Shown: positions 4,916-36,006 of the stretch, one piece after another
Layout of the letters: each line of letters opens with the position of its first letter
Position numbering within the stretch: the stretch's first letter is position 1
Assembly: GCF_900105065.1 (NCBI RefSeq)
Contig: NZ_LT629749.1
Coordinates: 930,001-994,000 of the forward strand
Direction of reading: 5' to 3'
DNA from: Friedmanniella luteola
Lineage (GTDB): Bacteria; Actinomycetota; Actinomycetes; Propionibacteriales; Propionibacteriaceae
DNA: 64,000 nt
The notes under the pieces: model-generated
The model's database searches: none
The model's input: the letters and a program-made list of their open reading frames with translations, nothing else
Told to the model about the DNA's origin: nothing
Translations under genes and position numbers: made by a program

Positions 4916-6433
4916 TTGGGCGAGAACACCCCGCCGGGCAGCAGCTCCGGCGGCCCCCGCCCCGGAGACCCCGCACCGCAGGGTCCGCCTCCCGACGAGC
5001 AGTACTGGGCCCCGTTCGGCCGCCCGCCCGCCCCGGAGCCGGCCCCGCCGCCGCTGCCCGGCGCGACGCCGCAGACCGCCGCGACCGACCCGCACGCCGA
5101 CACCGACGCCGGCGCGGACACCGCACCGCTGCCGGTGGGGGAGTGGAGCCGCCCGGACGCCTGGACGCCGCGCGGGCCCGGCTTCGACACCCAGCCGACC
5201 CAGGCTCCCGTGCCGTCCCCCTACGCCGCAGCACCGCCCCCGTGGGGTCCGCCGTCCTCGTCCGGTCCGCAGGCCTGGGGGCCGCCGCCGCCGTTCTCCC
5301 CACCAGCGGGCGCCGGCTCGACGGCGCTCCCCGGCCCTGCGGCCCGGCGCCGCAGCCGGCTGTGGCCGGTCCTCGCCCTCGCCGCCCTGACCGCCCTGCT
5401 GGTCGGCGGTGCGGCCGGCTACGGCGGCTCGCTGCTCGCCGGCCGCGGCACGGCCGGCCCGACGGTCGCGACCAGCGCCCCGGCCGACCCGGGCACCAGC
5501 GGCAGCGCCCGCCCGCTGCCGGCGCCGCCGGCCCAGGCGGACACCGTCGAGGTCGCCAAGCGGGTGCTGCCCGGCACCGTGATGATCCAGACCGGCAGCT
5601 CGACGGGGTCCGGGTTCGTGCTCGACACCGCCGGCCGGATCATGACCAACAACCACGTCGTGGCCGGGGCCGCCGACGGCGACCGGATCCGCGTCGTCTT
5701 CTCCGACGGCCGTCGGCAGAACGCCACCCTGGTGGGCCGCAGCCCCTCCTACGACCTGGCCGTCATCAAGGTCCGGGCCTCCGAGGACCTCGAGCCGCTG
5801 CCGTTCGGTGACTCCGAGGCCATCGAGGTGGGCCAGCCGGTCATCGCGGTCGGCGCCCCGCTGGGCCTGCCCGGCACCGTCACCCAGGGCATCGTGAGCG
5901 CGCAGGACCGGCCCGTCGTCGTCAACGGCGGCTCGGACGCCGACGCCCCGACCGCCTACATCAACGCCATCCAGACCGACGCCCCGATCAACCCCGGCAA
6001 CTCGGGCGGGCCGCTGGTCGACGCCGCCGGACGCGTGATCGGCGTGAACTCCGCGATCCTCACCCTCGGGTCCAGCCAGGGCCAGACCGGCAACATCGGG
6101 CTCGGCTTCGCCATCCCCGTCGACCAGGCCCGCCAGATCGGCCGGCAGCTCGCGGAGAAGGGCAAGGCCAGCTACCCCGTCATCGGGGCGACCGTGCAGG
6201 ACACCAGCTCGGGCGTCCAGCTGCAGACCGTCGAGTCCGGCGGCCCCGCCGACGACGCGGGGCTGCGGCAGGGGGACGTGGTCACCCGGATCGACGACCA
6301 GCGGGTGCGGACCATGGAGGAGCTGATCGTCACGATCCGCACGCGACGGCCGGGCCAGGCGGTCGTGCTCGACTACACTCGCGGCTCGGCCGACCGGTCG
6401 GCCAGGGTCACGCTGGGCAGCAAGGAGGGGTGA
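4916..6433 (+). CDS. htrA: Membrane-anchored HtrA/DegP serine protease
   Basis: A 505-residue trypsin-like protease. Residues 1-148 are a Pro/Gly-rich cytoplasmic tail, 149-171 a transmembrane anchor, then the protease domain with the triad H247 (TNNHVVAG), D280 (SYDLAVIKV) and S363 (NPGNSGGPLV), and a C-terminal PDZ domain (VESGGPADDAGLRQGDVV). It degrades or refolds damaged envelope proteins outside the membrane. Starts at a rare TTG, with AAGGG 8 nt upstream, only 4 nt after the anti-sigma stop, so it belongs to the sigE operon. Its stop overlaps the tatB leader. Confidence 0.93.
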   Translation: MGENTPPGSSSGGPRPGDPAPQGPPPDEQYWAPFGRPPAPEPAPPPLPGATPQTAATDPHADTDAGADTAPLPVGEWSRPDAWTPRGPGFDTQPTQAPVPSPYAAAPPPWGPPSSSGPQAWGPPPPFSPPAGAGSTALPGPAARRRSRLWPVLALAALTALLVGGAAGYGGSLLAGRGTAGPTVATSAPADPGTSGSARPLPAPPAQADTVEVAKRVLPGTVMIQTGSSTGSGFVLDTAGRIMTNNHVVAGAADGDRIRVVFSDGRRQNATLVGRSPSYDLAVIKVRASEDLEPLPFGDSEAIEVGQPVIAVGAPLGLPGTVTQGIVSAQDRPVVVNGGSDADAPTAYINAIQTDAPINPGNSGGPLVDAAGRVIGVNSAILTLGSSQGQTGNIGLGFAIPVDQARQIGRQLAEKGKASYPVIGATVQDTSSGVQLQTVESGGPADDAGLRQGDVVTRIDDQRVRTMEELIVTIRTRRPGQAVVLDYTRGSADRSARVTLGSKEG

Positions 6434-23812: not shown

Positions 23813-25243
23813 ATGCCTGCCCGCAAGGTCGACCTGCCCGGGGTGGTGCCGCCCGAGCTGGCCGCCGGCCTCGCCCGCATCCGGGCCGAGCTGGAGGTGC
23901 CGGAGGCCTTCCCGGCGGACGTCGTCGACGCCGCGCAGGCCGCCGTGGCCGCCGCGTCGCTGCCCGCGCTGGACCGCACCGACCTCGAGCTGGTGACCAT
24001 CGACCCCCCGGGGGCGCGGGACCTGGACCAGGCCCTGCACCTCGCCCGGGACGGGGACGGCTTCGTCGTCTCCTACGCCATCGCCGACGTCGCCGGCTTC
24101 GTCCGGGCCGGCGACCCGGTCGACCGCGAGGCCCACCGCCGCGGGATGACCCTCTACGCCCCCGACCGCCGGATCCCGCTGCACCCGCCCGTGCTCAGCG
24201 AGGGGGCGGCGAGCCTGCTGCCCGACCAGCTGCGGCCGGCCCTGCTGTGGACGCTGCGGCTCGACGCGCACGGCCGGATGACCGACGCGGAGGTGGTCCG
24301 GGCCCGCGTCCGCAGCCGCGAGCAGCTCGACTACGCCCAGGCGCAGGCCGAGATCGACGGCGGCTCGCCGCGGGAGGCGCTCGCCCTGCTGGCGGAGGTC
24401 GGCCGCTGGCGTGAGCAGCGCGAGCGCGAGCGCGGCGGGGTCAGCCTGCCGCTGCCCGAGCAGGAGATCGTGCCGGACGAGGGCGGCTGGCGGCTGGAGT
24501 TCCGCGCCCCGCTGCCGGTCGAGGGCTGGAACGCGCAGATCTCGCTGCTCACCGGGATGGCGGCCGCGCACCTGATGCTCTACGGCCAGGTGGGCGTCGT
24601 CCGCAGCATGCCGCCGGCCGGCCCGGGGGCGCTGCGCACGCTGCGGGCCACCGCGAAGGCGCTGCGGATCACTTGGCCGGCCGAGCTGGACTACCCCGAG
24701 TTCGTGCGGAGCCTCGACCCCGCCCGTCCCGCGCACGCAGCCATGCTCAACGCGTGCACCACGCTCTTCCGCGGCGCGGGCTACCGCGCGTTCGACGGCG
24801 ACGTGCCGCCCGACGCCGAGCACTCCGCACTGGCCACCGACTACGCCCACTGCACGGCGCCGCTGCGCCGGCTGGTCGACCGCTACGTCGGCGAGGTGTG
24901 CCTCTCGCTCTGCGCCGGGACCCCGGTGCCGGGCTGGGTGCGCGAGGCGCTGCCGGCGCTCCCGCAGGAGATGGCCGTCGCCGACCGCCGGGCCAAGAAG
25001 TACGAGCGGGCGGTGCTGGACCTCGTCGAGGTGGTCCTCCTCGCGCCCCGGGTCGGGGAAGTGTTCACGGCCACGGTCGTCGACGTAGACGAGCAGCGGC
25101 GGCACGGCACCGTGGTGGTCGCCGACCCCGCCGTCGAGGCCCGGGTCCGGGGCGAGGGGCTGCCGCTCGGGCAGGAGATCGAGGTGCGGCTGGTCTCGGC
25201 CGACCTCGCGACGGGCGCCGTCGTCTTCGAACGCGCCGGCTGA
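23813..25243 (+). CDS. RNB-domain ribonuclease (RNase II/R-like)
   Basis: A 476-residue single-chain 3'-5' exoribonuclease. The RNB active site is TIDPPGARDLDQAL with its clustered aspartates, and FVVSYAIADVAGFV, HCTAPLRRLVDRY and YERAVLDL complete the domain; a short C-terminal S1-like barrel (GEVFTATVVDVDEQRRHGTV) follows. It lacks the N-terminal cold-shock domains of RNase R, as is usual for this actinobacterial form. ATG follows TAGGGT (23801-23806) by 6 nt. A hairpin terminator follows at 25271. Confidence 0.88.
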   Translation: MPARKVDLPGVVPPELAAGLARIRAELEVPEAFPADVVDAAQAAVAAASLPALDRTDLELVTIDPPGARDLDQALHLARDGDGFVVSYAIADVAGFVRAGDPVDREAHRRGMTLYAPDRRIPLHPPVLSEGAASLLPDQLRPALLWTLRLDAHGRMTDAEVVRARVRSREQLDYAQAQAEIDGGSPREALALLAEVGRWREQRERERGGVSLPLPEQEIVPDEGGWRLEFRAPLPVEGWNAQISLLTGMAAAHLMLYGQVGVVRSMPPAGPGALRTLRATAKALRITWPAELDYPEFVRSLDPARPAHAAMLNACTTLFRGAGYRAFDGDVPPDAEHSALATDYAHCTAPLRRLVDRYVGEVCLSLCAGTPVPGWVREALPALPQEMAVADRRAKKYERAVLDLVEVVLLAPRVGEVFTATVVDVDEQRRHGTVVVADPAVEARVRGEGLPLGQEIEVRLVSADLATGAVVFERAG

Positions 25244-25270
25244 GCGGCGGGCCCGGGTCCGGGGAACGGC

Positions 25271-25299
25271 GCAGCCCCCGCCTGGCGGGCGGGGGCTGC
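25271..25299. terminator. Hairpin terminator after the RNB gene
   Basis: Perfect 12-bp stem (25271-25282 with 25288-25299; GCAGCCCCCGCC), 5-nt loop. It lies 28 nt past the RNB stop, in a convergent gap. No T run, so intrinsic efficiency is uncertain. Confidence 0.7.
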
Positions 25300-25372
25300 A
25301 GGCTGTCCCTCCCCAGAGACGCCAGATCAGGGGCCCGTCGGTCCGGAGCGGAGCTCCGACGGGCGGAGGAGG

Positions 25373-25414
25373 GCGGGGCGAGAGGAAGCTCGGGGGTTCA
25401 TCCCCTCGCCCCGC
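25373..25414. other. Second hairpin in the convergent gap
   Basis: A 10-bp perfect stem (25373-25382 with 25405-25414; GCGGGGCGAG) closes a loop that contains an inner GGGG/CCCC pairing. It could be a terminator for the lipoprotein gene reading leftwards, or a folded part of an unannotated small RNA in 25244-25557. No protein gene is visible in this gap. Confidence 0.5.
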
Positions 25415-25461
25415 TGAGAAGAACACTACGCAGCACGAACCGACGCTTCAAGCAACCGGGT

Positions 25462-25493
25462 TGTCCACTGTCGGACATGTCCAATAGTGGACA
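25462..25493. promoter_or_regulatory. Tandem TGTCC-N6-GGACA operator pair
   Basis: Two abutting 16-bp sites, 25462-25477 and 25478-25493, each TGTCC-N6-GGACA, form one larger dyad whose centre is GGACATGTCC (25473-25482). The surrounding bases are locally less GC-rich, as in promoters. The site lies between two convergent gene ends, with no annotated start nearby. It is a likely operator of a dimeric regulator acting in pairs. Confidence 0.55.
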
Positions 25494-25557
25494 GAGCGGC
25501 GACGGCGCGCAGGACCGCGCCCGGCCTGGGGAGCGGGCCGCGCACCGTCCGGGCGGG

Positions 25558-26319
25558 TCAGGCCAGTTGGTCGAGAAGGAGCCGGGCCTGCGCCCGGCTC
25601 ATCCGGTGGCCGGGGTCGCTGAGGATGACGAGGGTGACCCGCGCCCGGCTGCGCCGGCCGACCTCGGTCCACTCGCCGTCGGGGTAGGTGCGGCGGTCGA
25701 CGAGACCCGGCAGGCCCTCGACCAGCGCGGTCCGCACCGGCTCGTCCAGGGTGCGGCACGCCGCGACCTGCGCGGTGTAGCGCTCCCAGTAGGCGGCCGC
25801 GGCCGCCTCGTCGGCGAAGTCCAGGGCCAGCCCCACCCCCGGCGCGCCGTCGCCGTCGGTGTAGTTGCCCTCCAGGGCGGCCACCGGGTCGGGGTAGTCG
25901 TCGCGGGTCACGTCGGCGCAGCCGATGGTGATCGCGTCCTGGGCGGCGTAGCGGGGGTCCCGGGCGTGCACCCAGCTGCCGTTGCCCTCGAAACCCTCCT
26001 CGGTGCTGCCCTCCAGCGCGACGGTCCGCCAGCCGGCCGGCACGGGCAGAGCCGCTGCCGCCAGGTCGCCGGCCGTCGAGGGCGCGGGCCCGCTGGGTGC
26101 GGGCGGGGGCGGCAGGGTGTTGGTGGTCGTGGGCTCGGGCGCCGGGTCGGCGGTGCTGTAGGCCGCCGTCGCCGGCCCCGACGCCGACGCCGGAGCCGGT
26201 GACGGACGTGGGGCGGGCGCCGGTCCCGCCGGTCCCGCCGGTCCCGCCGGTCCCGCCGTGCAGCCGGCGATCAGCACGAGCGACGCCGCCGCCAGCGCGG
26301 CCCGTCCCCGGCGGCTCAC
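25558..26319 (-). CDS. Secreted lipoprotein of unknown function
   Basis: A 253-residue protein with a lipobox (SLVLIAGC) at residues ~13-20, then a Pro/Ala/Ser-rich linker of about 65 residues including four GPA repeats encoded by a GGTCCCGCC microrepeat. The globular part (~90-253; AALPVPAGWRTVALEGSTEE, WERYTAQVAACRTLD, RSRARVTLVILSDPG) resembles sensor-like domains of actinobacterial lipoproteins, but I cannot name it. GTG start, 10 nt after the M15 peptidase stop, so it is probably cotranscribed with that peptidase. Confidence 0.7.
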   Translation of the reverse strand: MSRRGRAALAAASLVLIAGCTAGPAGPAGPAGPAPAPRPSPAPASASGPATAAYSTADPAPEPTTTNTLPPPPAPSGPAPSTAGDLAAAALPVPAGWRTVALEGSTEEGFEGNGSWVHARDPRYAAQDAITIGCADVTRDDYPDPVAALEGNYTDGDGAPGVGLALDFADEAAAAAYWERYTAQVAACRTLDEPVRTALVEGLPGLVDRRTYPDGEWTEVGRRSRARVTLVILSDPGHRMSRAQARLLLDQLA

Positions 26320-35483: not shown

Positions 35484-35624
35484 GCCCGGCACCCTACGAA
35501 CCGACGCGGCCGGGCGTCGACCTGTCGGGCCGCGCCCGCGCCGGGACGCCTGGGAGAGGTGCACAAATGTGCGGTCGAGCCGGGCGGCCGGTGCCGCGGC
35601 CCCGAGCCGGCCGTGGTGGAGGGA

Positions 35625-36006
35625 CGAGTCGGTCGGTAAGCCGGATTCTGTCCCGACCACGAGGGCCGGGGACGGTCATCCATCTGCGACCGCTGTCACC
35701 AGCGGCCTGGTGCGACCTACCCGGAGACTCGGGCGAGCAGCCCTCGAACGCCTCCGCAGGCACGCGAGCGTGCCCTTCTTGGTCTTGCTCCCGGTGGGGT
35801 TTGCCGAGCCGCCCCAGTCACCTGGGGCGCTGGTGGTCTCTTACACCGCCGTTTCACCCTTACCCGCACGTCGCCGCGCGGGCGGTCTGTTCTCTGTGGC
35901 ACTGTCCCGCGGGTCACCCCGGGTGGGCGTTACCCACCACCGTGCTCTGTGGAGTCCGGACTTTCCTCGACGCCGTCGCCGGCGCCGCAACCGTCTGACC
36001 GACTCG
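35625..36006 (-). ncRNA. rnpB: RNase P RNA (class A)
   Basis: About 382 nt on the minus strand. The 5' half shows the conserved GAGGAAAGTCCGGACTCC, and the 3' half the ACAGAATCCGGCTTACCG of the universal RNase P core. The 5' end CGAGTCGGTCAGACGG pairs with the 3' end CCGACCGACTCG to close helix P1. It is the catalytic RNA that cuts the 5' leader of tRNA precursors. Short spurious frames in the same span are not genes. Confidence 0.97.

Follow-up and report, generated by a model that had tools for sequence, protein, structure and literature searches.

Why should the gap between the 3ʹ ends of two genes carry what appears to be a regulatory site, and does this gap encode a transcript of its own? 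The question is raised by positions 25244-25557 of the window, by which we mean the whole stretch of 64,000 nucleotides of Friedmanniella luteola DNA that was analysed. On the left, a plus-strand gene for an RNB-domain (RNase II-type) exoribonuclease (23813-25243; PF00773, E 9.4e-42) converges on the gap. On the right, a minus-strand open reading frame (25558-26319) directs its 3ʹ end towards it; its start looks lipoprotein-like by eye, and its product matches no Pfam family above that family's cut-off. The original prediction had described a structured convergent gap holding operators, from which an unannotated small RNA (sRNA) or a short gene might be expressed. The space between the gene ends does contain a dyad of 32 bp (25462-25493), accompanied by GC-rich hairpins. 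The sRNA has fared well: a fixed geometry of operator, -10 element and hairpin, covariation within the hairpin, and retention of the same gap in a relative together give good support for an unannotated sRNA encoded on the minus strand. We consider it probable that the complete account also holds, in which a LuxR-type activator acts on the dyad, the RNA displays a loop with five consecutive C residues (C5), and sibling sRNAs exist elsewhere in the genome.

The predicted sRNA gene occupies 25262-25416 (minus strand). Its start near 25416 is placed from a putative -10 hexamer, TAGTGT (25423-25428, minus strand), located 33 nt past the end of the operator, whereas its 3ʹ end is uncertain (approximately 25262-25271) because the terminator-like hairpin there has no T-run behind it. 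Hairpin 1 (25373-25414, minus strand) has 14-bp arms that are 93% complementary, and its C-rich apical loop AACCCCCGAG (25389-25398, minus strand) is a candidate binding site for mRNA or protein. It is followed by hairpin 2 (25333-25364, minus strand), with 9-bp arms, and by a conserved 3ʹ module (25271-25326, minus strand) that ends in the terminator-like hairpin at 25271-25299, with 12-bp arms. The gap had been said to contain two perfect hairpins, which is true of 25271-25299 and 25333-25364 and does not extend to hairpin 1. When the minus strand from 25262 to 25422 was folded, the predicted free energy was -97.2 kcal/mol (z -4.2), and none of 200 shuffled sequences was equally low; for the slightly longer segment 25260-25430, the z-score was -3.3 and 2 of 200 shuffles were equally low. 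Generic sigma-70 promoter and terminator scans of 25200-25600 returned no sites. The terminator-like hairpin, with its GTCCCTCCCCAG-type tail (25271-25326), has a second copy in both G000 and G018 (L003 and L022, ~1501-1556). Elsewhere in the window, Rfam identifies a class A RNase P RNA at 35621-36006 (minus strand; 294.5 bits).

The operator, TGTCCACTGTCGGACATGTCCAATAGTGGACA (TGTCCACTATTGGACATGTCCGACAGTGGACA in the sRNA orientation, on the minus strand), consists of two TGTCC-N6-GGACA units of 16 bp each that directly adjoin one another (25462-25477 and 25478-25493). These had been interpreted as two tandem operators. Both units are present, but the relatives favour one 32-bp two-fold dyad made of four half-sites, because some inner bases are non-random across the alignment of operators. 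With the 18-base form TGTC-N7-GGACATGTCC-N7-GACA, the site is the sole match in the window at up to 3 mismatches, where shuffled sequences would give 0.03. Across the organism's own genome (4.7 Mb in one contig), the 20-base form TGTCC-N6-GGACATGTCC-N6-GGACA yields 5 sites at up to 3 mismatches, 2 of them exact, compared with 0 for a reversed control. The 18-base form at up to 3 mismatches finds sites in all 20 genomes of the genus, some of which must be due to chance since the reversed control matches in 8 of the 20. At up to 2 mismatches, the operator occurs in 12 of 117 genomes of the family, comprising 9/9 genus members and 3 of 108 others (one site each), and the reversed control in 2 of 117. 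The idea that relatives would keep the operator pair is thus upheld by these sites in all nine genus members, and the whole gene is present in the relative G018.

Exact operators were encountered at four loci in a scan of named genomes: in the genus members G002 and G016, and in Sinosporangium and Streptomyces. The latter two loci (L100: 5169, 5202; L102: 3616, 3632) each carry, besides the exact operator, another site with 1-3 mismatches that overlaps it or lies close by, at a distance of 16 or 33 bp. We have not built on these sites because a tblastn search for homologues of the regulator or protease described below found none within 8 kb. Another element, GATCCCCCGATC(GTC), recurs in L006, L008, L009, L027, L043, L077, L096 and L173, by eye upstream of the operator in the sRNA orientation at several of them; none was seen in the window copy.

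Matches to the window gap are found in 15 of 40 relatives. They cover nearly the whole gap in G018, and in several others lie only around hairpin 1. The relatives also contain many hairpins that present the loop AACCCCCGAG on unlike, covarying stems. We aligned 31 of 40 such hairpins, omitting L013, L025, L037, L045, L049, the first of L050, L059 and both of L092. In this alignment, 94.6% of 496 cells are paired and the covariation score is 0.91, values that were both reached by none of 500 shuffles; slid versions of the alignment are 40-51% paired. The paired percentage is inflated because a hairpin was collected only if 9 or more of its 12 inner pairs formed. However, the four outer pairs of the stem, which played no role in collecting, are paired in 25, 29, 31 and 31 of the 31 rows. 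Double changes occur in 15 of 16 pairs, which is not distinctive, given that 73 of 500 shuffles reach the same level. Conservation and covariance analysis, proposed at the outset as a way to examine the gap, speaks for an RNA gene, both by the covariation score and by the preservation of the gap in G018.

A covariance model built from these hairpins describes a 16-bp stem closing the 10-nt AACCCCCGAG loop. The window hairpin matches it at 25369-25418 (minus strand; 64.3 bits) by construction, as this copy sits in the model's alignment. Among 117 family genomes, 12 have matches: 9/9 genus members and 3 others with a single weak match. G003 and G017 have 14 matches apiece, and the organism's own genome has 8 hairpins, distributed over 7 loci. 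At E<=5e-4 and with stricter filters, a search of 396 genomes of the phylum recovered the own genome and 19 genomes of one other genus, presumably Streptomyces, with one copy in each; these copies lie upstream of a gene starting MAPTSTPQTPFGRV, which we take to be dapA. Collection at up to 1 loop mismatch gave 92 unique hairpins, 19 of them from this distant genus, with the exact loop AACCCCCGAG in 87 and ACCCCCCGAG in the remaining 5. The sequence GGGAACCCCCGAGCACC was also noted at L056 (G000:C1:1465362-1465385), apparently between the 23S and 5S rRNA genes in the own genome; it was not scored as a family hairpin.

The spacing of these hairpins relative to the operator also supports an RNA gene. 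We compared 22 operator-hairpin pairs, orthologous pairs included, which remained from 28 after two kinds of row were set aside: 5 from the distant genus, where a site with 5 mismatches is separated from the loop by 47 nt, and one that represented a second hairpin. In these pairs, the loop begins 58-65 nt past the operator. A TAnnnT hexamer appears at offset 32-34 after the operator in 19 of 22 pairs (exactly at 33 in 15), leaving 3/22 without one, whereas every 4-wide window over offsets 0-26 gives 0/22. The T, A and T of the hexamer are the commonest bases of their columns in 17, 17 and 19 of the 22 rows. In the -35 region (offsets 10-15), no column exceeds 10/22. Of 21 operators from 15 regulator loci, two of these loci being from g12 genomes, 19 are flanked by TAnnnT at 33-35, on one side or on both. 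If the hexamer is placed at -12 to -7, then the operator would span approximately -77 to -46 with its centre near -61, and the RNA would start at the foot of hairpin 1. An operator centred near -61 is in an activator-like position.

This arrangement is kept in G018, where the same gap between the same neighbours contains the operator, the -10 element and hairpin 1, followed by a divergent middle stretch, in which the counterpart of hairpin 2 has a different sequence, and a near-identical 3ʹ module. The flanks of the gap form blocks that are 85.6% and 81.8% identical between the two genomes. For the hairpin loci of the own genome, 6 of 7 align with their G018 partners across 1-3 kb, and the seventh (2831752) does so across 451 bp only.

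These observations bear on three other ways to explain the gap. The hairpins might be dispersed (REP-like) repeats or intrinsic terminators rather than sRNAs, given that the copies are numerous and GC-rich and that the 3ʹ hairpin of the window has a second locus in the own genome. However, REP elements are copies made alike by recent spread, and the stems of this family differ and covary; at least two kinds of promoter stand at fixed distances upstream of them, and the long alignments with G018 at the own-genome loci also argue against mobile copies, so that we regard this explanation as very unlikely. It is more improbable still that a regulator binds the site where no RNA gene exists and that the hairpins are bidirectional terminators of the two neighbours. 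This proposal fits the convergent gene ends that flank the gap, yet the geometry of operator, -10 element and hairpin repeats at other loci and in other genomes. Finally, a short open reading frame (ATG AAC CCC CGA GC., MNPRA...) could be imagined across the loop, since ATG precedes AAC in 19 of 92 unique hairpins and GAGGGG lies ahead of the ATG in the window copy. In the other hairpins, the triplet before AACCCCCGAG is CTG (43), TTG (18), ACG (8), GTG (2), GCG (1) or GAG (1), the loop is invariant where third codon positions would fall, and where hairpins occur as double copies, the distance between their loops is 51 or 52 nt, and 43 nt in one case. The short gene that had been proposed as an alternative to the sRNA is disfavoured on all three counts, and we find it scarcely credible.

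The family can be compared with several known sRNAs. One is F6 (SfdS; RF01791) of mycobacteria, which likewise forms a long hairpin, with a loop given as UGA.CCCCCGA in the model alignment. F6 is reported to be located between genes that converge on it and to be induced by stress and in stationary phase (PMC8557902). It has a SigF promoter, in contrast to the 32-bp operator of the window RNA. None of 20 genus genomes exceeds the 46-bit cut-off of the F6 model, and identity with F6 was rejected on this basis. The best match (42.4 bits) has, by eye, the look of a terminator hairpin and lacks the loop, and the second, at 33.5 bits in G018, is a family hairpin. In Rfam searches of the window and, with lax thresholds, of 24 related loci, the model matched three times below its cut-off; L029 scores 25.2 bits. 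Actinobacterial 6C RNA (RF01066) is described as two stem-loops with six or more C residues in each (PMC8388888). The window copy, unlike 6C RNA with its two C6 loops, has a single C5 loop; moreover, 0/20 genus genomes exceed the 47-bit cut-off, no match was obtained on the 24 related loci with lax thresholds, and 6C identity was likewise rejected. By description, a C-rich loop is shared with scr5583 and scr1434 of Streptomyces, reported as expressed and conserved sRNAs (PMC3765725). No above-cut-off Rfam match in the window, or on the 24 related loci with lax thresholds, covers a family hairpin, and the titles and opening abstract lines of open-licence PMC articles gave no account of an sRNA family with the AACCCCCGAG loop or of the 32-bp operator. 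If the family is real, then Propionibacteriaceae gain an sRNA family that has no matching Rfam 15 model here.

Which protein might bind the operator? Operators that lack an sRNA hairpin often reside in one shared neighbourhood, whose order is a gene that we take to be 6-phosphogluconate-dehydrogenase-like, a regulator gene, a short gene for a peptide that by eye is exported, the operator, and an M4 protease gene. The regulator, represented by the product of L089:3611-4615, combines a TrmB-like N-terminus with a GerE-type helix-turn-helix, both under Pfam cut-offs: the own-genome protein scores 21.6 bits for GerE against a gathering threshold of 23.5, and with E<=0.01 as the limit, GerE is matched by 6 of 8 members. 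Its C-terminal part matches the GerE and DosR chains of the PDB (9.2e-5 and 0.0087), a resemblance to LuxR-type proteins, from which it departs in its N-terminus, in having no receiver domain among its Pfam matches, and in its association with a 32-bp dyad. It is present as a single copy in 9/9 genus genomes drawn; at E<=1e-20, a search of 117 family genomes finds it in 13. Outside the family there are only distant homologues: at E<=1e-25, the regulator search matches 19 of 296 genomes of the phylum, the own genome being one of the 19.

We inspected the regulator locus in 13 of 20 genus genomes, 9 of which had been found by the regulator search; the other four (G002, G006, G011 and G016) are a biased sample because they were chosen for having operators. 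An operator with 0-3 mismatches lies 375-3355 bp from the regulator gene in all 13. A search for TGTCC-N6-GGACA pairs and the regulators beside them, as had been suggested, thus led both to the 5 own-genome sites and to a LuxR-type gene within 0.4-3.4 kb of an operator in every genome inspected. The operator of the own genome at this locus has 3 mismatches, and when so many are allowed the control pattern produces matches as well; two g12 genomes with a close homologue of the regulator have just a 4-mismatch site, 2.3-2.6 kb off. Since the joint occurrence of regulator and operator is confined to a single genus, shared ancestry alone could account for their presence and absence, and physical linkage is the stronger argument. 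The comparison points to the LuxR-type regulator as the protein that would bind. Alternatively, the sRNA and its operator may be real and bound by another activator, such as a CRP/FNR-type protein, with the LuxR-type gene being a target or a neighbour. The 16-bp units with their 5-6-5 layout would suit such a protein, and we take TGTCC-N6-GGACA to resemble CRP/CooA-type sites. Against this stand the inner bases, which favour a single 32-bp dyad, and the position of the operator near the LuxR-type gene in 13/13 genomes, given that regulator genes under autoregulation often have their operator nearby. We consider another activator unlikely.

The peptide genes hint at what the regulator might sense. 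In 11 of 13 regulator loci we could read a gene for a short or repeat-containing peptide, which could not be made out in G010 and G011, and a full-length homologue of the M4 protease, a class assigned by running Pfam on the own-genome protein, occurs in the fetched stretch of 11 of 13 (exceptions, G002 with an 82-residue match and G019). Tandem repeats include GNSL x12 in G019, LNGA x27 in G006, VNGL x16 in G012, VNGF x20 in G007 and VNGV x6 in G016. INGV repeats occur in G002. The own genome has GRGV two times, its precursor ending in LDGRGV, G018 has GRGI two times, and a single C-terminal GRGY ends the peptides of G003, G014 and G017. Precursors with repeat or GRG units adjoin the operator and the LuxR-type gene at L191, L080, L081, L084, L095, L079, L089, L091 and L192-L194; they are candidate peptide pheromones, and the location of the gene beside operator and regulator suggests an autoinducing peptide. 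At L089, L091 and L191-L194, AATCGCGTTAGG is no more than ~20 nt from the operator, on the flank opposite the peptide gene, and in most cases has a complementary arm behind it.

The operator itself, synteny, the hairpin family, the spacing of the -10 element, and the linkage of operator and regulator gene emerge from sequence comparison, whereas transcription, regulator binding, a response to peptide and mRNA targets belong to the following model. An activator acting as a dimer or tetramer, most probably the genome's single LuxR-type regulator and perhaps in a peptide-bound form, would occupy the 32-bp dyad and recruit RNA polymerase to a promoter that has a -10 element and lacks a conserved -35. 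The transcript would then begin at the foot of the 16-bp hairpin that displays AACCCCCGAG, whose C5 core is likely to base-pair with mRNAs at G-rich ribosome-binding sites, a mode of action that has been proposed for other sRNAs with C-rich loops. A search of the window for complements of the loop showed no enrichment (4 matches, one being the sRNA itself, versus 6.5 expected). Stems with a G-rich loop accompany the operator in places, among them one next to an own-genome operator: the loop GGATCGGGGGGTCA, which could pair with the CCCCCGA of the sRNA, is found on such a stem in two genomes (L032 ~1610-1640; L093 ~5610-5645), and the stem might be a sponge or target of the sRNA.

The window RNA would be one of several sibling sRNAs, some under the 32-bp operator and some under an ECF-like promoter. 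More tentatively, the system could represent Microlunatus-type peptide quorum sensing, in which the operator drives its own peptide gene together with sibling C-rich-loop sRNAs, and ECF-like siblings allow one loop to integrate several signals. The parts of such a circuit, equally conjectural, would be exported peptides (GNSL, GRGV/GRGY, LNGA, VNGL, VNGF and INGV units), a one-component LuxR/TrmB-type receptor and, in most genomes, the M4 protease. Vibrio Qrr RNAs are also several siblings under control linked to quorum sensing (PMC3262071). Their sequence and regulator are unrelated to those described here, where the link to quorum sensing is suggested by gene neighbourhood. If these proposals are correct, then sRNA control would be tied to a putative peptide-signalling locus in high-GC Gram-positive bacteria, and one invariant loop would be read out under different promoters. 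The operator, the promoter spacing and the loop are defined sharply enough for direct testing.

The second kind of promoter is represented by GTAACG-N13-20-CGAT, found upstream of 20 of 92 unique hairpins; 17 of these 20 have a spacer of 16 and a distance of 28 nt from the end of CGAT to the loop. We take GTAACG-N16-CGAT to be an ECF-sigma-like promoter. A scripted search found neither the operator nor the GTAACG pattern for 31 genus or family and 14 distant-genus rows of the 92, second hairpins of double copies included. Many of the AACCCCCGAG hairpins at L133-L152 and L108-L111 lie under GTAACG-N16-CGAT at fixed spacing, and at L108-L111 a CRP-like TGTGA-N6-TCACA-type site is visible by eye upstream of the hairpin. 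At two other loci, a c-di-AMP riboswitch (L004, 2010-2170; L025, 2005-2164) resides ~0.5 kb from a AACCCCCGAG hairpin that has no operator.
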